Positions 23,974 to 59,696 of a stretch of 64,000 nucleotides of DNA are shown piece by piece. The notes under the pieces are model-generated. The model did no database searches, had not been told where the DNA came from, and saw only the letters and a program-made list of their open reading frames with translations. The position numbers and the translations under genes are program-made. The DNA is taken from positions 2,237,501-2,301,500 of the forward strand of contig CP047152.1 of assembly GCA_041879295.1 (NCBI GenBank), given 5' to 3'. The DNA comes from Pseudomonas putida (GTDB lineage: Bacteria; Pseudomonadota; Gammaproteobacteria; Pseudomonadales; Pseudomonadaceae). How positions within the stretch are numbered: position 1 is the stretch's first letter; every line of letters begins with the position of its first letter.

Positions 23974-24017
23974 TGTACTGGTCTCTCTGCGGGTGTGCCT
24001 GTGAAGAGACCAGTACA
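23974..24017. terminator. 13-bp perfect inverted repeat between convergent genes
   Basis: Tgtactggtctct (23974-23986) is the exact complement of agagaccagtaca (24005-24017) with an 18-nt loop that resembles a degenerate REP core. It lies between the 3' ends of the LysR gene and pncB and suits a bidirectional terminator. Confidence 0.6.
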
Positions 24018-29749: not shown

Positions 29750-30979
29750 TCAACTGCTGAGCTTGGTCGTGAGATACTCAACACGGGAAATTTCAAAGAC
29801 CGACACACCATCCTTTGACGCGATGAGATCGAACTGAGGTACCCATTCAGGTATCTGCAGTGCTTCAAGGGGACTTCGGTCGAAAAGCACATAGTTAACA
29901 CCGCCCTCTCGCTGAACTGAGCGGAACGAGATGCCATCAAACCTCTGCTTGTCATAGTACCGGATGAATTCAGCAAGCGCTTGGGTCACAACATAATCCG
30001 TGTCATTAGCGCGCACAGGCCGGGCGATCAAGTCGTGGAGATACTCAAGCAATAGCCGACGATCAGTTCGCTTCTGGTAACCAGGCTCAAACCAGCTCAT
30101 TGATTGGTGCTCAAGCGAAGTGAGCGCGGTGAAATCAAAGAATTCCAACGGTCGGGTGGAGACGAATTCTGCCACCACCACTTTATCCCCAATCGAGGGC
30201 CGTACCTCCGCAATCCCCGTCTGTGCGTCGGCGGCGACGTAAAGCAGTGGTACGCCTGAAGGGCTCATCCTGTTATTGGCAGCGCGATCCTTTGGGGGCG
30301 CTCCTAGCTCCTTCGCGGGATCATTTTGAAATGCCAGGAGCTGATTATGAGTGGAGGCAATTCGAGCTCGATAAAAGCGAGTAGCTTCCGGGGCAACCTT
30401 GACGACAGCAGTCACATCAGGGGTTTCGCGCCTACTTGCTCGCATCGCTTCAAAAATCAGGGACTCGAAAAACATGCTGGCATTGGTATTAAAAAACCTG
30501 CGGCCATGCACCAGTTCAGTCGCTATACGCGTCCAATCACCCTCGACCCACCAGCGCTCGTGCTCCTCAGATTCAAACGGGCTTGATACCCGGCAATACT
30601 CCTGCCCGTTGAAGTAAAAGTCTTCCTCATCAGCATCTGTATCAATGAGCCGTTCGGCCACCGCATTACATACGGCTTCCGATTCGCACCGGATGGCAAT
30701 ACCAATTATCCGACTGAGGCCCATCTCGTAACCTGGGTGAAGTCCGTGGTCGATGGCAAAATGATCCGAAAGGTGCCTTTTGATCGTCGATGCAATTTTG
30801 CTGGAGGTGAGCGCCTCGAGCACTGAGCGGCCGCAGCAGGAGCAGAGCTGCTCCTGCGAACGTCTTGAGGCCTGTTTCTTGAGCCAAGTGTCGCCAATGC
30901 AGGTCACACAAACAAACATGGGTTCCTCAGCATCTTCTTTGGCGAGGATCTCATGCAAAATATTATCCAGTAAGGCCAT
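29750..30979 (-). CDS. HEPN/RES N-terminal plus RES-domain protein, copy 1
   Basis: This 409-aa protein starts at the ATG at 30979 (MALLDNILHEIL) after aagga. Residues about 22-60 hold a four-cysteine N-terminal domain (CVTCIGD and CSCCGR) of the HEPN/RES-associated type. The C-terminal RES domain shows its three key residues: Arg in YRARI, Glu in GIAEVRP, Ser in ISFRS. RES toxins degrade NAD+ in known toxin-antitoxin pairs; whether the long HEPN/RES proteins do so is inferred. No antitoxin of the Xre type is adjacent. A relative lies at 33761, and the two flank the RiPP-like cluster. Confidence 0.75.
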   Translation of the reverse strand: MALLDNILHEILAKEDAEEPMFVCVTCIGDTWLKKQASRRSQEQLCSCCGRSVLEALTSSKIASTIKRHLSDHFAIDHGLHPGYEMGLSRIIGIAIRCESEAVCNAVAERLIDTDADEEDFYFNGQEYCRVSSPFESEEHERWWVEGDWTRIATELVHGRRFFNTNASMFFESLIFEAMRASRRETPDVTAVVKVAPEATRFYRARIASTHNQLLAFQNDPAKELGAPPKDRAANNRMSPSGVPLLYVAADAQTGIAEVRPSIGDKVVVAEFVSTRPLEFFDFTALTSLEHQSMSWFEPGYQKRTDRRLLLEYLHDLIARPVRANDTDYVVTQALAEFIRYYDKQRFDGISFRSVQREGGVNYVLFDRSPLEALQIPEWVPQFDLIASKDGVSVFEISRVEYLTTKLSS

Positions 30980-31530
30980 CGAATTGCTTCCTTGTAGCGT
31001 TTGAGCAAGGCCAAATCGTATCACCGTCAATTAACTGCGGCACAATCTCCGAAGATCTACGCTTGCCGGCGCTGCATCAGCTATTGCTCCTCAATCTCAA
31101 TGAACAAGGGCTGCTTCCCTGTTGATGACAATCGCCACCAACTGAGCTCTAGCGTTCGATTCAACCGGAGAGTGTCGCCGTAGCTGCCAACAACGTCACC
31201 GTCGTGGCTGCGAGGCCAAGTAAACGGGGGGGAGGGTGAGCAAGGCATGAGCAAACCATTACATTCGACATGTGGTTCGCTATCTCGAATCTGCGCTAGT
31301 TGAGCATGACAGGGCCGTCAATCTGAGGCCGCGTGCGTTCGATCAGCCAGGCAACTGCGTTGTGCGCCATTTCTGTGAAAGCACGAGGATTACTTGAGCA
31401 CGATGCGCGATAAGTCGACGCTACATACTCGTGTCTGGGGCCTTGCCTTCCGTTTACCCCAATGCTGGCCAAATGGTATTGTCGGCGGGATCTCGTCTAT
31501 CGCGACTTGCCCGGCAAAGGAGACGCCAGC
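30980..31530. other. Gap upstream of the graspetide-like precursor
   Basis: This 551-bp gap holds no supported gene. It contains agcgttcgattcaaccgga (31151-31169), which recurs with one mismatch at 45099-45117, and both copies are followed by weakly similar sequence, as if from a decayed shared element. The gap must also hold the promoters for the RES gene and the precursor gene. Confidence 0.4.
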
Positions 31531-32022
31531 TTGGGAGCTTTACAAAATTCGCCATTCCTCTCTCGATTTGCGACGCCAAGAACAGGGGAGGACACCATAC
31601 CTGGCTTCTATTCTCCTGACCTCCAGATGTGGGCGGTTCAGGCTCCGAATGGTGAAGTCCCAATCATCGCTGACGGTGCCCTGAACGAGCTGATGACCAA
31701 GACGAAGGTCAACGCCGAACAAGATGATGAGGCGTGCTGGCAGATTGAGTTGTTGACCAAAACCTATCAGAAGGTCGAAAGCGATGACGATGATCCCAGT
31801 CCCTATCGTGGACAGTCGGCAGATCTGGGTGATTTGCGTAGTTTCGATTCCAGTAACCACCTGCTGCAGCTCGTGACCAAAACTGATGCGGTCACTGAGA
31901 GAGACGATCGGTGTAATGCCAACCACATCCTCGAACTGATCACGAAAACCAACGTCGAGCTGGAGCGCGATGACAATGGTGATCCTACGTTCGGCTTGGA
32001 CACACGTTACTATTCAGACTAA
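31531..32022 (+). CDS. Predicted graspetide (omega-ester RiPP) precursor with four core repeats
   Basis: I start at TTG 31531 because AAAGGAG (31516-31522) sits eight bases before it, giving MGALQNSPFLSRF (163 aa); an ATG at 31462 in frame is the alternative. The leader has PFLSRF, like the PFxxRF recognition motif of graspetide leaders. The C-terminal half repeats L-x-TKT-x4-E-x-DD four times, with Thr at residues 56, 76, 116 and 138. Thr, Lys and paired acidic residues at fixed spacing are exactly what an ATP-grasp macrocyclase links by esters or amides. The ATP-grasp gene begins 14 bp downstream. No cleavage protease is seen nearby. Confidence 0.78.
   Translation: MGALQNSPFLSRFATPRTGEDTIPGFYSPDLQMWAVQAPNGEVPIIADGALNELMTKTKVNAEQDDEACWQIELLTKTYQKVESDDDDPSPYRGQSADLGDLRSFDSSNHLLQLVTKTDAVTERDDRCNANHILELITKTNVELERDDNGDPTFGLDTRYYSD
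31696..31974 (+). repeat. Four core motifs TKTxxxxExDD in the precursor
   Basis: The motif occurs at codons beginning 31696 (TKTKVNAEQDD), 31756 (TKTYQKVESDD), 31876 (TKTDAVTERDD) and 31942 (TKTNVELERDD). Spacing inside each motif is identical; spacing between motifs is 20, 40 and 22 codons. DNA sequences differ, so selection rather than recent duplication keeps the pattern. Confidence 0.8.
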
Positions 32023-32036
32023 CCTGGAAGCGCAAC

Positions 32037-32996
32037 ATGTTGCTGTTGGTGACAAATCGCCGTGACATCACGATGGACTACGTGGTTGCTGAGCTTCGCC
32101 GGCGCGGCCAGCCTTTTTTCCGCCTCAATACCGAGGAATTGCCCGAAGCACTGTGCTCGATGGCAGGATTTCCTCGGGACGCTTGGTCTATTTCGCTGGA
32201 CGGGGTAGTTGTTCGTGGTTCGCAGATAACTGGGGCCTATTTCCGCAGACCAGGAGCCCCTGTTTTAGCTGACACGGTCACAGATCCTGGCGAGCGGGCC
32301 TACGCCGAAGCAGAGTGGAGCAGCTTTCTCAAAAGCCTGTATTCCAGATTAGAGGGGCGGTGGCTGAACTCACCCTCAAAGATTTTTATGGCTGAGGACA
32401 AGCCGATGCAACTCCTCCTTGCGCAGGAGATTGGCTTCCAGGTACCTCAGGCTTTTGTCACGAATGACATTTCCTCTGCACAAGCTATCAATGCACTCGG
32501 CAAGGCGATTGGTAAGCCCCTTCGGCAGGCGGTATTGGGGGGTGAAACGGAGCGAGTAATCTTCACCACGCGACTCGCTGAGATTGAGGATGATCAGGCT
32601 GAATCAATCAGGCTGACCCCATTCATTGTGCAGTCAGAAATCCTGAAACAATACGATGTTCGAGTGACTGTTGTGGGCGAGGGTGTTTTCGCAACGGCGA
32701 TCTGGTCGCAAGATAACGAGGAAACGGAAACTGACTGGCGAAAGGGTAGCCGGCCTGATCTTCGCCACGAGAAGATCGTACTTGAGCCTCGTGTTCAGCG
32801 CCAATGCGTGAAGCTCGTTAAACGTCTTGGTCTTCGGTACGGCGCCATCGACCTGGTATGCGATCGAGCGGGGAAATTGTGGTTTTTGGAGATCAACCCG
32901 AACGGGCAGTGGGCGTGGATCGAGAATCTAACAGGCTACCCAATTGCTTCAGCGATCGTAGATGAGCTGACGGTGAACAGTATTGCTCAAACTTAA
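32037..32996 (+). CDS. ATP-grasp ligase (graspetide macrocyclase-like)
   Basis: This 319-aa protein is of the MvdC/MvdD-type ATP-grasp family, which uses ATP to activate acidic side chains and join them to Thr, Ser or Lys in a RiPP precursor. Diagnostic segments are YFRRPG (about 62), SPSKIFMAEDKPMQL (lysine-bearing start of the ATP-grasp core, about 112), and the terminal Mg/ATP-binding LEINPNGQW (about 285). The first residues MLLLVTNRRDITMDYV fit the pre-ATP-grasp fold. It follows the precursor by 14 bp and overlaps the next gene by 14 bp, so all three are one operon. It differs from RimK or glutathione-synthetase types by the RRP and NPNGQW motifs. Confidence 0.82.
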   Translation: MLLLVTNRRDITMDYVVAELRRRGQPFFRLNTEELPEALCSMAGFPRDAWSISLDGVVVRGSQITGAYFRRPGAPVLADTVTDPGERAYAEAEWSSFLKSLYSRLEGRWLNSPSKIFMAEDKPMQLLLAQEIGFQVPQAFVTNDISSAQAINALGKAIGKPLRQAVLGGETERVIFTTRLAEIEDDQAESIRLTPFIVQSEILKQYDVRVTVVGEGVFATAIWSQDNEETETDWRKGSRPDLRHEKIVLEPRVQRQCVKLVKRLGLRYGAIDLVCDRAGKLWFLEINPNGQWAWIENLTGYPIASAIVDELTVNSIAQT

Positions 32997-33663
32997 AGAA
33001 CGGCTCCGCTGGCTGTGGCCGACGGTCATCCCTCTGGCACCTACTGAACTGGCCGCGGATGCAGAGTGGAAGCAGCAGATTGCTGCATCAGTGCGTGAAG
33101 GGGATTGGACGACCGACAGCGATGTGGTGCTGGACGAATCTAGGCGACTTTTCGATGCGGAGGTTGACCGCCGCAAGAGTGCTGACGCCAAGGCAGGAAT
33201 TTACCTCGCAGCCATCACGGCGCTGATACCCGTATTAGTCTCGTTGTTGCCGGCGCTGTGGAGTGACAAAGCGAGCAAATGGCTAGGCTGTGCGGGGCTC
33301 ATGCTGTTCGGGTTGGCAGTTGCCTTCTTGTTGAGCGCAGGGGCCTGGGCGTTCAGAACGTTGAAAGTTGCAGGTTTCGCCCAGCTCGGCCCTGGGGAGC
33401 TAGCCACCACCTGGAAAGAAAACTCGCCTAGAGCGGGTTTAGCCAAACAACTCGCCCGCGCTGTCCTACATAACTATTCGTTGGTCAACGAGAAGGTTAC
33501 CGGCATCAAGATGACACATGAGTACCTGCTACGGGCCTTCCTGACCTTTACAATTCTCATGGTGCTTCAAGTGGTATGGCCGGTTGGCGCCTGGGTGGTT
33601 GAGGAAAGCGTCAGACTGATGGACACTCCGGCCCCGGTTCCTTTAATCATGTGCTATTCGTGA
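32983..33663 (+). CDS. Membrane protein coupled to the ATP-grasp gene
   Basis: This 226-aa protein probably starts at TTG 32983, inside the end of the ATP-grasp gene. It has a charged N-terminal region (about 1-70) and three predicted membrane helices (about 72-95, 100-125, 185-208). The segment RRKSADAKAGIYLAA before the first helix resembles the 'ADxKAG' entry seen in some small membrane effectors of conflict systems. In this operon it could export or confer immunity to the modified peptide, or act as a membrane effector. I cannot decide from sequence. Confidence 0.65.
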   Translation: MLKLKERLRWLWPTVIPLAPTELAADAEWKQQIAASVREGDWTTDSDVVLDESRRLFDAEVDRRKSADAKAGIYLAAITALIPVLVSLLPALWSDKASKWLGCAGLMLFGLAVAFLLSAGAWAFRTLKVAGFAQLGPGELATTWKENSPRAGLAKQLARAVLHNYSLVNEKVTGIKMTHEYLLRAFLTFTILMVLQVVWPVGAWVVEESVRLMDTPAPVPLIMCYS

Positions 33664-33760: not shown

Positions 33761-34993
33761 ATGGGTGGCGTCAAGAGGATGATGGAAGAGGACATGGATC
33801 GGGGCTTCTCGCGAGTTGAGGACACGTTCGTATGCTTACGCTGCGTCGAGGATGAAGCTTTAAAAGCTTTCGTCAGGAAAAACTCGGTGCGAGGAAACTG
33901 TAGCTATTGCGATCAAAGCCGACGTGTCACTGACATGAACGACGTCATTGAGCATGTCGTTACCAGCTTCTCATTAGAGTGGGGCGACGCTGCTAACGAG
34001 GGACTCGCCTACGAAACCCGGGAAGGAGGATGGCAGGGGCGGGTTTACAGTACGTGGGAGCTTCTATACAACTACGGCCCCGAGTGCTCGGAAGAGGTGT
34101 TGAATACTCTCGCTGGATCCATATACGATGTGGCGTGGTGCGAGCGGGATCCCTATTCATTACCAATAGATCGAACTCTGGTTTACGGTTGGCAGAGCTT
34201 CAGTAACTTCATCATTCATACCGCACGATTTGTATTTTACAAAGCTGTGAACACCTCGTATGCGGCTGACCAGCACGATGAGATGAACCCGGTCGACATT
34301 CTTGAAACGCTGGGGAGCGTTGCCAAAAAGCTCGATCTGATAGGAACAGTACCAGCAGGACAGCCGATCTTCCGCGTTCGTATCGTCGATCCTGAAACTC
34401 AACTCACCCGATCGAGTGAGCTTGGGCCCCCACCGGCGGCTCATGCCAACATGCCGAACCGGATGAGCCCCGTTGGCATCCCCATGTTTTACGGTGCGTT
34501 CGATCAAGAAACCGCTATTCGTGAAACCTACGATCCAGGATGTGAAACCCTGAAGAAGGCTGCGACTGGAGAGTTTGTGCCTATCAGAGATCTACGGATT
34601 GTTGACCTATCCCGCTCGTTTTTTGTACCGAGTCTGTTCGATCCTGCACTGCAGACACTCAGGCCATACTTCCGCTTCATGCGAGACTTCATTGAGGATT
34701 TCACCAAACCGATTGAGCGAAGCGATCGTGCCCATGCTGAATACGTTCCGACTCAGGTCGTCACCGAGTATTTTCGGCACGTTTACCGCACCGATGATGA
34801 TCATCAAATTGATGGGATCATCTACCCGAGCTCCAAGACTGGAGCCAAGGCGATTGTCATTTTTGCAGATGCCTCGGGATGTATCGATGTTGACGATCCA
34901 CCCAATGATCGCGCGCTTTTGCGGCTGAACAGGGCATTCGACGTTGACCTGTCCGGGATCGCCGCGGCCTATGATGACGATGAAATTTTCTGA
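33761..34993 (+). CDS. HEPN/RES N-terminal plus RES-domain protein, copy 2
   Basis: This 410-aa protein starts at ATG 33761 after a gaggagg ribosome site. An N-terminal four-cysteine region (CLRCVED and CSYCDQ, about 24-50) precedes a long helical part and a C-terminal RES domain with Arg in FRVRI, the segment NRMSPVGIPMFYGAF, Glu in TAIRE and Ser in YPSS. The organisation equals that of the gene at 29750-30979, but identity is modest, so they are not a recent duplication. NAD+ breakdown is the likely activity by family. It lies 97 bp after the membrane protein gene of the RiPP-like cluster. Confidence 0.75.
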   Translation: MGGVKRMMEEDMDRGFSRVEDTFVCLRCVEDEALKAFVRKNSVRGNCSYCDQSRRVTDMNDVIEHVVTSFSLEWGDAANEGLAYETREGGWQGRVYSTWELLYNYGPECSEEVLNTLAGSIYDVAWCERDPYSLPIDRTLVYGWQSFSNFIIHTARFVFYKAVNTSYAADQHDEMNPVDILETLGSVAKKLDLIGTVPAGQPIFRVRIVDPETQLTRSSELGPPPAAHANMPNRMSPVGIPMFYGAFDQETAIRETYDPGCETLKKAATGEFVPIRDLRIVDLSRSFFVPSLFDPALQTLRPYFRFMRDFIEDFTKPIERSDRAHAEYVPTQVVTEYFRHVYRTDDDHQIDGIIYPSSKTGAKAIVIFADASGCIDVDDPPNDRALLRLNRAFDVDLSGIAAAYDDDEIF

Positions 34994-36279: not shown

Positions 36280-37398
36280 TCACCCTTGTGATTCGCCAGT
36301 CCTTATCAGCCTTAAAGGGGGCATAGGTACCTTAAGCATGAATTGGGCCTCGACCATCTGACTCGTCAGCCCCGCCCCTGCAAGAACCCGGCTCCATGTC
36401 GAGAAATCCAGTAGATCGATTGCGCGCTGAACAAGCAGAGGAGACTCCATAGGAATGAGCTCATCGAACTCTTCATGCTTGGTAAACCCTTTCCGCGCGA
36501 GGTAGGTAAATCCGCTCTTGGCTTGATCTGCGGTAAGCAGATCCAAAGCCCGGGCGCGATAAATTAGCGCCTTGAAGCTGACCTTCCAGCGAAGCTTCAG
36601 CTCTTTCAATGCTGGCCAGTTCAGATACTTGCCCCGCATTGCCGGAAACTCCGCGGCGAAGCTCGCCCTCGGCATAAGGAGGGCGCTGGCAAACTGGTTG
36701 GCTTGCTCTTCTGTTTCACGGCAACCAGTCTCTATACCTTGGTGCATAACCAGATGACCGAGCTCGTGAGCCAGATCGAAGCGCTGCCGTCCAGGGTTTA
36801 CTTTTGAGGTGTTGCGGACGATCAATGGACGTTTGTTGAATAGCGAGAATGCGTCAATGCGATCGTCTGCGTCAGCCAGGTTAACGACGAGCACACCTAT
36901 TTTTTCCGCCAGCTTGGTAACGCTCGAGAGTGGGCCTAGGCCAATGCCTTGCTCTCTTCTGAAACGCTCGGCAACCTGCTCAATTTTCCCGGCACCGGTA
37001 ACCGGTTCCTCAATCACGTGAAAATCAACCGCGGGGAACGCTACCTCTTTGTCCAACTCATCAACGAGAAGCTCAAACATTTCTACCTGAGCTGCGATGG
37101 TTTTCTTCAGCGTCTGTGTCGAGGTGCGCACACTGCGGAAGTTACATTGCTCAAGCTCAACACCACTCTTGCGGGGGGCAAAGAAAAAGCTTTCTTTGAC
37201 GTTCAGGATTTCGCAGAGCTGCTTCAACTGTCCTGGGTTGGGAATTGAGTTGATCTCGAGCTTGTGTGCGTATTGCCTAGTCACTCCAAGGAGCTCGCCG
37301 ATTTCAGCAAGGGAGCGCCCCGAGGCGCACCTCGCGAGGCGGAGCTTGTCGGGTGAGAACTCATCACCCAGAGGCAGGAGGCCTGTTGTGTCATTCAT
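36280..37398 (-). CDS. XRE-HTH plus ImmA/IrrE metallopeptidase
   Basis: This 372-aa protein has an N-terminal XRE HTH (about 15-68, SLAEIGELLGVTRQYAHKLE) and an ImmA/IrrE-type zinc peptidase domain (DUF955) with HELGHLVMH at about 215. The active-site HExxH is intact, with the later glutamate in the ETEEQANQFASALLMP segment. Such fusions act as regulators that cleave a repressor in mobile elements and occur as antitoxin/toxin partners in defence systems (RosmerTA-like). It overlaps the upstream 206-aa gene by 8 bp, which implies translational coupling. Confidence 0.85.
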   Translation of the reverse strand: MNDTTGLLPLGDEFSPDKLRLARCASGRSLAEIGELLGVTRQYAHKLEINSIPNPGQLKQLCEILNVKESFFFAPRKSGVELEQCNFRSVRTSTQTLKKTIAAQVEMFELLVDELDKEVAFPAVDFHVIEEPVTGAGKIEQVAERFRREQGIGLGPLSSVTKLAEKIGVLVVNLADADDRIDAFSLFNKRPLIVRNTSKVNPGRQRFDLAHELGHLVMHQGIETGCRETEEQANQFASALLMPRASFAAEFPAMRGKYLNWPALKELKLRWKVSFKALIYRARALDLLTADQAKSGFTYLARKGFTKHEEFDELIPMESPLLVQRAIDLLDFSTWSRVLAGAGLTSQMVEAQFMLKVPMPPLRLIRTGESQG

Positions 37399-38011
37399 CT
37401 TTCAGGTCAGCGTCTTTCGTTTCTTTCTGCCCAGCGTCCTTGTCGCGACGAACTGGTAGAGAATCATCAATTTCAACAACAGGGGAGAGCTCAGTGGTGC
37501 GGACAGAAACCAGAGGTTCGTAATTGTGTGTCCACTTGCTGATGACATTGCGGTTGGTGTCGAAGCCCAAGACAGATACGGTCAGCGTTGGGCCATCTGG
37601 GTTCCTATCGCTGTCAACATACAACCGCCAGGTAACGTTCCCGTCAGTGGCCGGCCCAAGCAAACTGTCGTGGTAAAGCTCTACGACGTTCTTCTCCAAG
37701 CGATAACCTTTCTTACGTGTGTCCGGGTCATCCGTCACCACCTGCATCAAAATCCCATCAATGCTGATCGTGTAATCCAACGTGTTGTTGACGAGCTTGA
37801 ACCAAGGGAGGTCACCCTGACGATGTAAACGCTTAAACCGACCATGGATGCGACCGTAAGGAAAAATCCCTTTCGTCCAGTTGGTGTCATCTTCAGTGGA
37901 TGTAGCCTCAAGAGCTTTGTAAGCAGCATCCAAAAGGTTGTTGCAGACGACATCAAGATGGGCGCGGCTGAGCTTCGGCTCGAGCTCACTTGGATGCTGA
38001 TATTCAGGCAT
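37391..38011 (-). CDS. Hypothetical partner of the XRE-ImmA gene
   Basis: This 206-aa soluble protein (MPEYQHPSELEPKLSRAHLD) has no family I recognise. Residues about 85-160 show a beta-rich pattern (YTISIDGILMQVV, VTWRLYVDSD, TLTVSVLGFD). The last 40 residues are charged and lysine/aspartate-rich. It is the first gene of the operon and overlaps the XRE-ImmA gene by 8 bp, so it may be the target or toxin controlled by that peptidase. Function unknown. Confidence 0.6.
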   Translation of the reverse strand: MPEYQHPSELEPKLSRAHLDVVCNNLLDAAYKALEATSTEDDTNWTKGIFPYGRIHGRFKRLHRQGDLPWFKLVNNTLDYTISIDGILMQVVTDDPDTRKKGYRLEKNVVELYHDSLLGPATDGNVTWRLYVDSDRNPDGPTLTVSVLGFDTNRNVISKWTHNYEPLVSVRTTELSPVVEIDDSLPVRRDKDAGQKETKDADLKDE

Positions 38012-45864: not shown

Positions 45865-47418
45865 ATGGAACCGACCCTTACCGAATTGAAGGAACAGAGA
45901 CTCCAGAAGTTGTTCAGCGATTGTCAGCAACAGGTCATTGCTCAAATCATTGGGCCATTCGGCCTGTCTACCGCTATGTTCGATGATCGCAATGGCGGCA
46001 ATGTTACCACCGTACATAACTTCGAAAACGCCAGTGCCGATTATGTGGCGGAAAAAGACCAGAACACCTACGCCGCTTCCCGCGAGCGGTACGACCGCAG
46101 CAAGCTCAAGGACATCAAGCAGAGTGTCAAGGATAGGTTGAAGGCAGCAGGAGTAGACGGTTATACCGGTAAGCAGGTCGATCCTGTAAATCTTGAGGCC
46201 GATCATGTGACGGCCTTGAAGAAAATTTATGGCGATCGCAAGAACCATCTGGCTTACAACACAGGTGAGGGCTTGGATCGTCTTAGCGATGTGGCCAACA
46301 ACACCGAAAACCTGGTCGCCACGCATCGGGATGTGAACAACCCCAAGCGAGCTAAAGACATCCTTGAGTTTGCTGATGAGGTAGTCGATGGCAAGACCCA
46401 GGCCGAACGTCTGGAGCTCGATTCGGAGCGGATGAGGGCGGCAAAGGAACGTTCTGAGGATTTCCTTGAGCGCACTGCGAACCGTGCGATCAGAGTCAAG
46501 CAAACCGGTGAACTCCTCAAGACAGGCGCAAACCAAGCAGCCCAGATGGGGATGCGCCAAGCTTTGGGTGTGCTGCTCAATGAGTTAGTGAGTGGGTTGT
46601 TCAATGAGATCAAAGCTCTGATCAAGCATGGGGTAGAGCAAGGAAAAACCTTGTTCGAAGAAATCCGCCAGCGCTTGGCTAGCGTGGCAGTGCGGGTGCT
46701 AAAGAAAATTCCCGATGCAGTCTCCCAGATGTTCCAAGGGGGCATCAGCGGCTTTATGAGCAATTTGCTGACCTTTGTGCTCAACGAATTTCTGTCCACC
46801 GCCAAGCGCTTCGTCACTGTCATTCGTGAGGGTCTGATCGGTTTATTCAAGGCCTTCAAGATGATCCTCTTTCCACCCGCGCATCTGACGCCCGATCAAG
46901 CGCTGCAGGAGGGTTTGAAGCTCCTGAGTACGGTGGTGATCTCATCGGTGGGCATCCTGCTTCAGGAGACTGTGAAAACGTTCATCTCAAGCATGGCGTT
47001 TCTGCTACCTGTGGCAGATATCTTATCGTCGGCGTTGATAGGAACCTTGAGCGGTTTGTTGTCGGCGTTTCTTGCCTATCAAATCGACTGCATGTTCGAT
47101 CGCTATCGTCATGGCTACGACGAGAGATTCTTGGATGAACTTATCGCTGACTCTCGGCGCCGGGAGGAGTTCGCGCAAGGCTTGGTTGAGCTGTCTGAGA
47201 GCTCACTGCGCAATGTGAGCGCTTTCAACCGGTCGATCATGCTCTACCAAGATATCGGACAGACGTTAGCGGATTCGGGGCGAATGGCGGATTCGACCTT
47301 GGCCAGCCTCGAGCAAACTGTATCCCAGACACGCGAACAGGTGGCTAAAAGCGTGGCGATGATCGAGTACATCGAATCGAGCCAACGAGACATCGAAGAT
47401 TTTCTGGAATCGCTTTGA
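45865..47418 (+). CDS. HNH-like nuclease domain plus membrane-helix protein
   Basis: This 517-aa protein starts at the ATG at 45865 after aaggaataggt. Around residues 110-165 is an HNH-like pattern: EADHVTALKK (H114), NNTENLVATH and NNPKRAKD. The middle (about 205-330) is amphipathic, and residues about 340-415 hold two to three hydrophobic segments (LLSTVVISSVGILLQ; SALIGTLSGLLSAFLAY). The C-terminal 90 residues are helical. It may be a membrane-tethered or membrane-disrupting nuclease effector. The next gene starts one base after its stop, so they are coupled. I know no named system with this pair. Confidence 0.65.
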   Translation: MEPTLTELKEQRLQKLFSDCQQQVIAQIIGPFGLSTAMFDDRNGGNVTTVHNFENASADYVAEKDQNTYAASRERYDRSKLKDIKQSVKDRLKAAGVDGYTGKQVDPVNLEADHVTALKKIYGDRKNHLAYNTGEGLDRLSDVANNTENLVATHRDVNNPKRAKDILEFADEVVDGKTQAERLELDSERMRAAKERSEDFLERTANRAIRVKQTGELLKTGANQAAQMGMRQALGVLLNELVSGLFNEIKALIKHGVEQGKTLFEEIRQRLASVAVRVLKKIPDAVSQMFQGGISGFMSNLLTFVLNEFLSTAKRFVTVIREGLIGLFKAFKMILFPPAHLTPDQALQEGLKLLSTVVISSVGILLQETVKTFISSMAFLLPVADILSSALIGTLSGLLSAFLAYQIDCMFDRYRHGYDERFLDELIADSRRREEFAQGLVELSESSLRNVSAFNRSIMLYQDIGQTLADSGRMADSTLASLEQTVSQTREQVAKSVAMIEYIESSQRDIEDFLESL

Positions 47419-47419
47419 T

Positions 47420-49324
47420 ATGGAAATGAACAACCGCACTGCGACGCGACAAGACCTCCAGATTGTCGAAGCATTTTCTTCGGTTAGCGTGCCGGAGCAG
47501 ATTATCCGCCAGAGCAACATCAGGGAGCTGGTGCAGGGAATGACCGATGCCCAAGCGTCGGTTCAATCAACCACCAGTAAATTGGAGCGTGCGCGGCGAG
47601 AGCAAAAGGAAGGTAATTTCCTCGGCAACTGGTGGAATGATAGGGACGATGCGGTTCAGGATGCGCAACTGGACTTGAACAAGTCAATTGGCAGCCTGAC
47701 GCAGAAGTCCTCACAGCTTTTGATCGTTAATACAGCGATCTCCAAGATCCTGCATGATCAGCAAGGTGTTCTGTTGCAGCAGCAGAATATCTTGAAAGGT
47801 CAGACCGATACGCTGCAGACGCAAAACAGCAAGATTCTCAGTCAGCAAAGGCTACTAGAGCAGCAGCAACGAGAAATTAATGCTGCCAACGAAGGACTGA
47901 TGCAAGCGAAAGGGATCTCCCAGGAGCAGGCGAAAAAGCTTGTGGGGTGTGTGGTGCGGGTGAGTGATGCCGAGAAGGCCATTCACCAGGCAAACCAAGA
48001 CTTGAGTCAAAGTGTCGATCTTCGGTTGAGAGAGTCTGCTCAGGATTATCTAGCGTGCTTGCGTCAAGGGTTAGAGGAGCGGGATGAGCGTTGGTCGATT
48101 GCAGAGCGGCAGGTGCACCAGGCGCTCGATGCACAGAACAGGCAGATGCAGCATGACCAAGCTGCGTTGCATGAGCAGCTCGTGGTTCTTGAAGAAAGCC
48201 TGGAGCTGAAGCTGCAAGCTAACGAGCAAGCGTTCAAATCGAGCGCGACCGCTCAGCGGCAGATCATCCAGCAAATGGAGGAGCGCTTCACGCTAGAGGT
48301 CGATAGCGTTCAGCGGGCTTTCGTGGAGTCTGCCCAACGAAGCGAGTTGGCTCTCGAAAAGACGCATGAGGCTTTCGAGTCGCAGAATGCCCAACTGAAG
48401 CATCAGCAGACTGCCATACGGGAGCAGCTCGGTGCCCTTGAAGGGAATCTTGATCAGCAAGTGCAAGCCGGTGTGCAGGCGCGTGAGGCATTCGAAGCGC
48501 AGAATGAGCAACTGCGGAACCAGCAAACGGCTTTGCGTGAGCAGCTCGGCATTGTTGAAGAGACTCTTGAGCAGCAGCTGCAAGCAAGCGTGCAGGCGCG
48601 TCAAGCATTCGAGGTGAAAAACGCGCAGCTGCAAGATGAGCAGACTGCTATGCGTGACCAGCTCGGTACCCTAGAAGAGAATCTTGAGCTGCAGGTGCAA
48701 GCAAGCGTGCAGTTGCAGGATGAGCAGGCTGCTATGCGTAAGCAGCTCGGTGTCCTTGAAGAGAATTTTGAGCAGCAGCTGGAAGCCAGCGTACAGGCGC
48801 GAGAGGGATTCGAGGCGCATTACGCGCAACTGCAAAGTGAACAAACTGCTTTGCGTGAGCAGATTGATGTTCTTGTGGAAAGTCTGGAGAAAAAGCTGCA
48901 AGCCAGTGTGCAAATGTTAGATTCGGGCATGACTGCTCAGCAGGAGTCCATCCACCAAATGGAGGAGCGCTTCTCGCTGCAGGTCGAAAGCGTTCAGCGT
49001 GCTGTCGTGGCATCTGCCAAGCAAAGCATGTTGGCGATACTGAACACTCGTAAGATGATGACAGGCACGTTCGAGGCAACCCGTCAGGCGGTTAAGCAAG
49101 CGTTGCAAACCCAAGGAACAGATTTCAAGCTGTCTCTCGAGCATGTCGTGACGGATCTCGAGGCAGCCCGGCAAGAGTTGATGACCCAACAATCGCAACT
49201 GACCGACCTCCAGCAGGCACTCAAGGAGAGCCAAAAAAGACAGATGATTGGTCTAATTTCTGTCGGATTGCTGGCTCTCGGTGCACTGGTTTGGCAAGCC
49301 ATCTTGTATTGGGCGCAAACCTGA
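47420..49324 (+). CDS. Long coiled-coil protein with C-terminal membrane anchor
   Basis: This 634-aa protein is dominated by glutamine- and glutamate-rich heptads (about 80-600), so it should form a long coiled coil. The final 25 residues (MIGLISVGLLALGALVW) are a single membrane helix, a tail anchor, so most of the protein faces the cytoplasm. It contains a tandem 39-residue repeat (about 318-500). On both sides of the repeat are related blocks with IxQMEERFxLxVxSVQRA. It probably works with the HNH/membrane protein encoded one base upstream. Confidence 0.7.
   Translation: MEMNNRTATRQDLQIVEAFSSVSVPEQIIRQSNIRELVQGMTDAQASVQSTTSKLERARREQKEGNFLGNWWNDRDDAVQDAQLDLNKSIGSLTQKSSQLLIVNTAISKILHDQQGVLLQQQNILKGQTDTLQTQNSKILSQQRLLEQQQREINAANEGLMQAKGISQEQAKKLVGCVVRVSDAEKAIHQANQDLSQSVDLRLRESAQDYLACLRQGLEERDERWSIAERQVHQALDAQNRQMQHDQAALHEQLVVLEESLELKLQANEQAFKSSATAQRQIIQQMEERFTLEVDSVQRAFVESAQRSELALEKTHEAFESQNAQLKHQQTAIREQLGALEGNLDQQVQAGVQAREAFEAQNEQLRNQQTALREQLGIVEETLEQQLQASVQARQAFEVKNAQLQDEQTAMRDQLGTLEENLELQVQASVQLQDEQAAMRKQLGVLEENFEQQLEASVQAREGFEAHYAQLQSEQTALREQIDVLVESLEKKLQASVQMLDSGMTAQQESIHQMEERFSLQVESVQRAVVASAKQSMLAILNTRKMMTGTFEATRQAVKQALQTQGTDFKLSLEHVVTDLEAARQELMTQQSQLTDLQQALKESQKRQMIGLISVGLLALGALVWQAILYWAQT
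48370..48930 (+). repeat. Tandem 117-bp repeats encoding the coiled coil
   Basis: Units of 39 codons beginning EAFESQNAQL, EAFEAQNEQL, QAFEVKNAQL, a shortened 30-codon unit (LQDEQAAMRK), and EGFEAHYAQL follow one another. Each contains QTAxREQLGxLExxLxxQ. Copy-number variation is likely at this site. Confidence 0.8.
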
Positions 49325-58286: not shown

Positions 58287-59696
58287 TTGGAAATCCATAG
58301 TGTCAAAGCAGACCGTGTTTGGCTTGATCTGGAAGCTAAAGTCGACGGTGGTAATAATCGTGTTGACCTCCTGACTGGCCCTAACGGTTCTGGAAAGTCA
58401 GAGATTCTGAGTTTTCTTGCCAACGCTTTTAAATCGAGAAAACACAATGGGGCGATCGAATACAGGCGCCAATTTGGTAGCCAACCCTACCACTTTAAAT
58501 CGGAAGACTCTCATGAGCCCGCGAGAGTTATTGCACAGACTTACAGCCCGTTTACCCGCTTTCCATCTCCGCTAACTCACGAGTCTTCTCTTACTAAAGT
58601 CTACTCGGAAGGTGCGGAGTCAAGTTCATTGTACGTGTGTGCTGGTCTCCATAAATCTACGCGAGTGGTCAGTTCAAGTTTGTCCAAGAATACGCTTGAG
58701 CAGGCTATTTATCGTCTCAGCGAATCACTTGAGAGCGTAGGATCAATACTCCGCGTGATGGAAAATCTGAAGCTCTCAGATAGGTTTGATTTCACTTATG
58801 AGCCTAGGCCTGGCCTGGTCGATCTAGCAGATGCTGTACGTGGCGGATATGTGGTGGACTATTTTGAGGGAAAAAAAGAAGAGTCTATTCGTCGTAAGTA
58901 TCCTCGCTCGGGCTTACTAATGGAGCTTCGAAAAGAAAGCCCTCAGGAGCTCGGAAGTTTGGTCGCCGAGGCATTTTATTTGCTAGGGGACGAGGTGCTA
59001 GAGTTTGGCCAGCTTAAACGTGGGATTGGTTCTATCGGTCGTAGGGATCGATATGAGTATGCGGCCTTCCAATCACTGTCGTTGTTGAGGCGTTTGGATC
59101 TCCTCACGCTAAGACGGTGTGAACTCACAAGCCTTTCAGGCGAGATTTTCGATGTTGCAAATGCAAGTTCCGGCCAGCAGCAAATGCTTTGCTCGGTTAT
59201 AGGTCTCGCAACAGCTCTTAGAGATGACAGCCTTGTGCTAATCGACGAACCGGAGCTAAGCCTTCACCCGCGTTGGCAGCAACAATATCTGGATAATCTT
59301 TTTGCAACCTTAGAACCCTTTAAGGGGTGCCACGTTTTGGTGGCCACCCACTCGCCATTAATCGTACAGCGTGGCCACGCTTTGGGTGCTGGAGTTGTTC
59401 AGGTGAAAAAAGAGTCGGCTTCAGAGCGTTTAGCTCAAGATGGTGAGTCGGTAGAAGCGACGCTGCAGAACGTATTTGATACCCCAGTAACTGGAAGTGT
59501 TCACCTTGCCAACGAGATTTTCGCATTAATTACGGAGGCTGAGACTGAAGGTGGCCCTGTAAGGCAAAAGTCTCTCGTCGAACTGAAGCGATTGGAACGT
59601 CTCTATTCTGATGGCGAATACCGTGATGAAAAAACCTTGCAGCTTCTTCGGGACGCCATTGATTTGATTAATATGGATATTCAGTACAATGCGTGA
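58287..59696 (+). CDS. AAA/ABC-type ATPase, Septu PtuA-like
   Basis: This 469-aa protein starts at TTG 58287 behind aggga. Motifs are: Walker A GPNGSGKS (about 31), an ABC-type signature SSGQQQML (about 291), Walker B LVLIDEPELSLHPRW (about 313), and the H-loop VATHSPLIV (about 349). The insert between Walker A and signature is about 250 residues, as in OLD/RecF-like ATPases. It overlaps an HNH gene by 8 bp. ATPase plus HNH in this order defines the Septu (PtuA-PtuB) anti-phage arrangement, or the similar retron-associated pair; no reverse transcriptase or msr is adjacent here. Confidence 0.82.
   Translation: MEIHSVKADRVWLDLEAKVDGGNNRVDLLTGPNGSGKSEILSFLANAFKSRKHNGAIEYRRQFGSQPYHFKSEDSHEPARVIAQTYSPFTRFPSPLTHESSLTKVYSEGAESSSLYVCAGLHKSTRVVSSSLSKNTLEQAIYRLSESLESVGSILRVMENLKLSDRFDFTYEPRPGLVDLADAVRGGYVVDYFEGKKEESIRRKYPRSGLLMELRKESPQELGSLVAEAFYLLGDEVLEFGQLKRGIGSIGRRDRYEYAAFQSLSLLRRLDLLTLRRCELTSLSGEIFDVANASSGQQQMLCSVIGLATALRDDSLVLIDEPELSLHPRWQQQYLDNLFATLEPFKGCHVLVATHSPLIVQRGHALGAGVVQVKKESASERLAQDGESVEATLQNVFDTPVTGSVHLANEIFALITEAETEGGPVRQKSLVELKRLERLYSDGEYRDEKTLQLLRDAIDLINMDIQYNA

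Follow-up and report, generated by a model that had tools for sequence, protein, structure and literature searches.

Introduction

To our knowledge, graspetides have mostly been studied as products to be isolated, and the function of most groups is unknown. In their chemistry, as set out in the main text of PMC13097080, ATP phosphorylates an acidic side-chain, which Thr (or Lys) then attacks; the same text extends 24 described groups by a further 19. The repeated-core plesiocin and thuringinin groups combine an ATP-grasp synthetase with a precursor carrying several Thr...Glu/Asp units (main texts of PMC8939145 and PMC13097080). Here, we describe a graspetide operon of Pseudomonas putida, found in a window of 64,000 nt (CP047152.1, positions 2,237,501–2,301,500; the window is the whole stretch analyzed, and all coordinates below are within it unless a locus is named), in which genes for a repeat-bearing precursor and its ATP-grasp synthetase are followed by one for a membrane protein. 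Comparison of profiles suggests that this third protein is a remote relative of PycTM, described in the main text of PMC11224242 as a membrane-spanning pore that acts after cyclic-pyrimidine signalling in the pyrimidine cyclase system for antiphage resistance (Pycsar). The operon is real, conserved and mobile, and offers a plausible route to something new in kind.

The locus resembles the plesiocin and thuringinin groups in its precursor–synthetase pair and in its several units per precursor. In contrast to these groups, the unit is TxTx4ExDD, usually with Lys between the two Thr residues, and units are separated by long, variable linkers; a PycTM-like third gene is present in every complete locus, and no exporter-protease was found. 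Groups 34 and 35 of PMC13097080, compared here by their main-text description only, often have long precursors with repeating motifs, and the extra proteins of group 34 are domains of unknown function or lack known models. The TKTx4ExDD family may already be among the catalogued groups, with 34 and 35 as the candidates. An initial annotation of this DNA had called the cluster a putative new graspetide: "graspetide" stands, by enzyme and precursor family, while "new" is uncertain in view of these two groups. The survey in PMC8939145 lists, in its main text, associated families, among them cluster 40, an uncharacterised membrane protein to which no clear role is assigned. That text contains neither "TKT" nor "Pseudomonas", and the main text of PMC13097080 contains none of "Pseudomonas", "phage" and "TxTxxxx". 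A link of graspetides to PycTM or to defence was not found in the literature searched, where coverage of subscription papers was poor. By its title, PMC12715929 concerns lanthipeptide clusters near defence systems. What appears to be new here, judged from sequence, is the PycTM relation of the membrane protein and the place of the three genes among defence genes, both in the window and in other genomes.

Operon organization and precursor start

The open reading frames (ORFs) and sequence define a three-gene operon on the + strand (31531–33663), encoding a graspetide precursor of 163 aa (31531–32022), an ATP-grasp graspetide synthetase of 319 aa (32037–32996) and a PycTM-like membrane protein of 226 aa with three hydrophobic segments (32983–33663). 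The precursor stop and the synthetase start are separated by 14 bp, and the synthetase and membrane-protein genes overlap by 14 bp. This is the arrangement given in the initial annotation, which had placed a precursor with a PFLSRF leader and four TKTxxxxExDD units 14 bp before an MvdC/D-type ATP-grasp gene, and an overlapping membrane-protein gene third in order.

The precursor is likely to start at a TTG codon (31531), as had been proposed. The start-codon column holds TTG, GTG or ATG throughout an alignment of 11 sequences, taken from the window and from 10 of the 13 Pseudomonas loci of the precursor-only scan described below, and an AGGAG-like box lies upstream. Position 31462, from which the cluster had been annotated, is an upstream in-frame ATG; it was rejected as the precursor start on account of the start-codon column and of a conserved element that straddles it. 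This element (31453–31483, + strand) consists of TTTACC, 18 nt and TATTGT within ATGGTATTGTC, and its TTACC, ATGGTA and TC are invariant in 11 aligned sequences. It is a possible promoter for which the argument is one of conservation only, since a consensus promoter scan gave 0 promoter-like sites at the element.

The precursor family

The leader motif PFLSRF (31552–31569) is consistent with the Phhx(1,2)h pattern given for leaders in the main text of PMC8939145. It is followed by a conserved pre-core region, PGFYSPDLQMWAVQAPNGEVPII (31600–31668), with the pattern PGYYS...MWVV...G..PII, in which W34, G41, P44 and I46 are almost invariant across 30 aligned precursors. An AlphaFold2 model predicts strands at residues 26–28, 33–38 and 41–44, with a mean predicted local distance difference test score of 84, 89 and 78 for successive blocks of ten between residues 21 and 50. 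For the core, the model has low confidence and shows no structure.

Four units make up the core, namely TKTKVNAEQDD (31696–31728), TKTYQKVESDD (31756–31788), TKTDAVTERDD (31876–31908) and TKTNVELERDD (31942–31974), all on the + strand like the leader and pre-core region. Residue shuffles of the precursor yielded even one unit in 0 of 20000 trials, which excludes chance as the source of four. No DNA-level repeat family was found, so that the units are kept at the protein level; the initial annotation had noted an invariant spacing inside the units despite differing DNA. An artefact of tandem DNA repeats was rejected for the same reason.

A single protein search returned 69 precursor homologues, from named genera that include Pseudomonas, Stutzerimonas, Halomonas and Vreelandella; 29 of these entered the precursor alignment. 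Whether precursor homologues keep TKT and ExDD had been set beforehand as the sequence test of the cluster, and they do: a set of 83 precursors, drawn from this search and from other loci, contains 283 strict TKTx4ExDD units, with at least one unit in 82 of the 83 (four units in 54, three in 15, two in 9, one in 4 and none in 1), a set that misses one locus precursor (L067) and possibly counts one protein from two sources. Under a looser pattern, Lys lies between two Thr/Ser residues in 108 of 113 units from 32 distinct trio-locus precursors, the window included; the five Lys-less units (L062, L065, L066) have C, R, S, L or G at this position. The shared chemistry would thus need only TxT, Glu and two acidic residues. 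Both ester and amide links had been envisaged within each unit. Because Lys is not essential, ester links from the two Thr residues are more probable than amides as the shared feature.

Comparison of the 24 defining codons with those of eight relatives gives 0 or 1 residue change against 8 to 14 silent changes. For the whole precursor, the ratio of nonsynonymous to synonymous substitution rates (dN/dS) is 0.04–0.07 in the five of eight comparisons in which dS could be estimated, at dS values of 0.98–2.16 that are near saturation. Strong purifying selection acts on the precursor as a whole and on its core as well. An orphan pseudogene was rejected on the same ratio, and so low a value is easier to reconcile with a conserved partner inside the cell than with a toxin engaged in an arms race.

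The ATP-grasp synthetase

The synthetase belongs to the MvdC/MvdD/TgmB ATP-grasp family and carries the RRP and LEINPNGQW motifs noted in the initial annotation. Its best model is TIGR04187 (E 3e-72), a likeness to the actinobacterial TgmA/TgmB (SAV_5884) graspetides. The pre-core stretch YDPxLQ...DGxP, also found in an ORF upstream of the ligase on a viral contig (L086), is a second likeness to this system. In contrast to TgmA/TgmB, however, the score of 243.5 bits lies under the 350-bit cut-off, there is no methyltransferase-type third gene, and the core is a different one. The synthetase also matches TIGR04185 (E 5e-51) and TIGR04184 (E 2e-42), both under the curated cut-offs of these narrower models, as well as the MvdC and MvdD models. 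Among solved sequences, the best match is PDB entry 5ig8 (E 9e-37), and the others are 7m4s, 5ig9, 9bou, 7mgv and 7drm.

An alignment of 10 synthetases shows R70-R71, K160, D207, R209, D233-W234-R235, D272, E285 and N287 to be invariant. The two solved relatives whose alignments were inspected share R70-R71, R209, DWR, D272 and the ExNPxGxW end, with Glu in place of D207. The neighboring gene shows the further marks of a graspetide system, being a precursor with a Phhx(1,2)h-type leader and with conserved Ser/Thr/Lys donors that stand at a fixed spacing from Asp/Glu acceptors. That synthetase and precursor are an enzyme–substrate pair is, from these sequence features, nearly certain.

The membrane protein and its relation to PycTM

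The hydrophobic segments of the membrane protein span residues 71–89, 101–119 and about 183–203, and a charged helix with ADxKA precedes the first of them. The PADLOC PycTM model matches 21 of 23 members of the membrane-protein family at E ≤ 0.1 (best 8.8e-8), and the two-transmembrane (2TM) effector model matches 2 of the 23. Profile–profile comparison by hhalign of this family with 15 proteins from PF18967 (PycTM) loci gave E 2.1e-5 over 138 columns (probability 77%) and a score of 43.8; reversing the target lowered the score to 22.2, and none of 40 column shuffles exceeded 16.2. The 15 proteins were drawn from 21 PF18967 loci after long or frame-doubtful ORFs had been dropped. Precomputed PF18967 annotation is also present on some homologues of the membrane protein. 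Taken together, the matches suggest a remote relationship to PycTM, which the initial annotation did not include, nor did it include the mobile, defence-island setting of the operon.

The protein is thus likened to PycTM and to the 2TM effectors of cyclic oligonucleotide-based antiphage signalling systems (CBASS) by a remote sequence relation, by (A/S)DxKA before the first membrane helix and by a neighborhood of defence genes. Unlike Pycsar and CBASS, the operon has no cyclase among its shared genes, and the would-be signal is a modified peptide. The membrane-protein gene evolves fastest of the three, with a dN/dS of 0.10–0.12 compared with 0.05–0.08 for the enzyme in three comparisons. In L062 (8957–10105) and L079 (6936–7847), the membrane protein continues past the shared core with a C-terminal extension.

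Conservation, decay and mobility

A scan by precursor only, covering 84,980 species by one genome each, found 23 loci, with all three genes in this order in 20. The complete trios come from Pseudomonas, Stutzerimonas, Billgrantia, Pseudoalteromonas, a Methylotenera metagenome-assembled genome, Pedobacter and Flavobacterium, and so include Bacteroidota; the three incomplete loci (L019–L021) have only a short one-unit precursor. When checked with one script, 32 of 35 loci were complete, or 31 of 34 distinct ones, as L069 is the same contig as L016. Distance matrices of the three proteins correlate with r of 0.91, 0.967 and 0.935, values reached by 0 of 2000 permutations, although joint vertical descent alone would also produce them. 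The membrane protein follows the enzyme most closely (r 0.967).

Among ORFs of at least 90 aa within the flanks examined, no fourth family is common to 30 trio loci. Because presence of the trio was the criterion for selecting these loci, the result is informative only on the lack of a fourth gene. The next three families occur in 15, 10 and 9 of the 30, and their examples are ORFs that overlie the trio on the opposite strand; the first family separate from the trio ORFs occurs in 6. No transporter, exporter or leader-protease family is common to the 30 loci, and neither is a cyclase, so that the pyrimidine cyclase that defines Pycsar is lacking from the shared genes.

The module is sporadic within the genus Pseudomonas. 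Among 398 genomes, the ligase is present in 12, the membrane gene in 13 and both in 10, of which 8 have an intact module; the remaining two are interrupted by an IS3-like insert (G361) or fragmentary (G096). Other cases comprise a ligase only (G270), a divergent pair (G094), two broken remnants (G169 and G264) and a solitary membrane gene (G274) for which no synthetase was found and which by eye is without the usual C-terminal tail and is possibly inactive. In G361, the insertion (L059, 7959–9148; OrfA and OrfB named by eye) lies inside the synthetase gene, and the precursor and membrane genes remain. A further ligase search matched 9 of 398 genomes: the TKT trio is present in G689 (same contig as L016), G541 and the genome of the window itself, and G676 has a PycTM-like gene with no TKT precursor seen within 1.5 kb flanks. 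Within the same flanks, the other five (G518, G465, G739, G679 and G764) have neither a TKT precursor nor a PycTM-like gene.

Searching with the enzyme added trios from a Leptospira phage, an unverified fecal phage scaffold and viral contigs (L079–L082), and from plasmids of P. aeruginosa, Croceicoccus, Agrobacterium and Sinorhizobium. Among 17 viral loci, in which L082 repeats the Leptospira phage precursor and L096 repeats L080, the trio is present in 4, one has a PycTM-like gene only (L088), and neither was seen in 12. Five of 84 plasmid records were examined, and the trio is present in four, the exception being H17 (Herpetosiphon). Leptospira phage KF114876 (L063, 5679–7580) and the related viral contig L081 carry the full trio, with a precursor in which the leader is PLIFDY and the last unit ends in DE.

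Genomic setting

The window has a GC content of 50–55% from 24 to 50 kb compared with 62–65% in its first 20 kb, which places a probable island boundary near position 24000. Proteins with RES domains are encoded on both sides of the trio (29753–31030, − strand; 33761–34990, + strand), the right one with an N-terminal HEPN/RES domain. Lying 2.6 kb from the trio is an RmrA-/RmrT-like pair (36283–38011, − strand), which we take to be the system named RosmerTA. Further along the island are a candidate defence pair, PDC-M40B and PDC-M40C (45865–49321, + strand), and a PtuA-like ATPase of Septu type or related (58287–59693, + strand), immediately followed by a 240-aa gene.

The flanks of the trio in 12 other genomes, sampled as the 12 nearest ORFs of 110–899 aa per locus, supplied 144 proteins, which together match 176 PADLOC families at E ≤ 1e-15, against 8 families for 132 proteins from control stretches of the same genomes, these controls being arbitrary and not matched for being islands. 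Family matches are not gene counts, since one protein can match many families. Named neighbors include Gabija proteins (GajB at L010, GajA and GajB at L014, GajA at L016, GajB at L022), PDC-S39 at L003 and PDC-S73 at L022; 3 of 10 chosen neighbors have no PADLOC match at E ≤ 1e-20.

Proposed role and alternatives

We consider the chances about even that the three genes form a mobile, intracellular conflict module, probably anti-phage and of the abortive-infection type, in which a graspetide controls a membrane-damaging effector. The ATP-grasp enzyme would read the PFLSRF leader, and probably also the folded pre-core region, and would form ester (perhaps amide) links within each TxTx4ExDD unit. 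The plesiocin motif is TTxxxxEE, with a Thr–Glu spacing of i to i+5. The inner Thr–Glu spacing here is the same, which makes nested rings within each unit likely, and the product would resemble a string of two to four beads, each a small cross-linked knot. As no exporter or leader-protease gene is common to the loci, the modified peptide probably stays inside the producing cell. The lack of a shared export or cleavage gene, the conservation of the whole precursor and an effector-like partner found among defence genes and on phages all point to an internal signalling or gating role. The peptide would control the adjacent PycTM-like protein, which once released or triggered would breach the inner membrane. 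The direction that we prefer has the modified peptide as an activating ligand, in place of the cyclic pyrimidine of Pycsar. The reverse is nearly as likely, with the peptide keeping the effector closed until an infection interferes with the making of the peptide or damages it. Activation is favored over restraint because the lone membrane gene of G274 persists, though it may be dead.

Several observations weigh against such a defence role. The membrane protein of the window, taken alone, matches the PADLOC PycTM model at only E 2e-4. PF18967 in current Pfam gives no match at E ≤ 1 to this protein and 10 relatives, and none at E ≤ 0.001 anywhere in its own genome, while a profile of the membrane-protein family finds 0 of 21 PF18967 loci at E ≤ 10; it is for these reasons that the relation to PycTM is graded as remote. 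None of the fold searches with the membrane protein rose above the background expected of helical bundles. Small membrane proteins beside genes for ribosomally synthesized and post-translationally modified peptides (RiPPs) are often immunity proteins. Decay would also explain the lone membrane gene of G274, though activation fits it better than an antidote does, and the fecal phage record (L062) is marked unverified and lacks a strict TKT unit. Proximity to defence genes, gauged here against unmatched controls, marks accessory islands in general, and the effector, peptide-control and defence activities are predictions from sequence and setting.

The order of precursor, enzyme and small membrane protein is usual in bacteriocin-like clusters, and would suit a secreted antimicrobial or protease-inhibitor graspetide, with the membrane protein as producer immunity or dedicated exporter and with leader removal or further export left to host proteins. 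Peptide transport has been proposed for uncharacterised membrane proteins of thuringinin clusters (main text of PMC8939145), and plesiocin, which also bears repeats, is a potent serine protease inhibitor (main text of PMC13097080). Secretion is nevertheless unlikely, given that no transporter or protease family is common to the loci, that the membrane protein resembles PycTM-type effectors and that the precursor has a dN/dS as low as that of the enzyme. Compact, overlapping genes, carriage on plasmids and phages, and RosmerTA and RES-protein neighbors would also be expected of a maintenance unit resembling a toxin–antitoxin system, in which the modified peptide would neutralise a constantly present, toxic membrane protein, and cells that lost the module from a plasmid, phage or island would die. 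The persistence in G274 of a membrane gene without a synthetase, albeit one that is tail-less by eye and maybe inactive, argues against this, and we regard it as quite improbable. Very improbable is a membrane protein that serves only as a scaffold or partner required by the synthetase, without an effector role, the peptide having some other internal function. Partner-dependent graspetide synthetases do exist, and the close tracking of the enzyme by the membrane protein would agree with such a partnership; the partners described are, however, of other kinds (a divergent peptidyl-prolyl isomerase and a 2-oxoglutarate oxygenase; main text of PMC13097080), and the membrane gene is the fastest-evolving of the trio, unlike a catalytic partner.

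To return to control of a PycTM-like effector by the graspetide, a compact, mobile and strictly conserved operon of this kind suggests a concrete role inside the cell, and modified peptides would, if this is true, join the signals known to control suicide effectors. It is possible, if only tentatively proposed, that the operon represents a new class of immunity, in which an enzymatically cross-linked, genetically encoded peptide replaces a cyclic nucleotide as messenger or gatekeeper of a PycTM-type effector, in a module exchanged among several phyla, plasmids and temperate phages.

Related loci

At three further loci (L061, 5624–7978; L074; L088), a divergent synthetase of graspetide type lies upstream of a gene that is weakly PycTM-like (E 4e-6 to 6e-8), which would fit a wider use of this pairing. 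The profile that matched L074 and L088 already contained L061, so that these matches lean on a divergent member. Their precursors differ from the TKT type, where one was found. At L061, two short precursor-like ORFs end in ETTDDN and ETTDDE, and one of them has a PFITRF leader.

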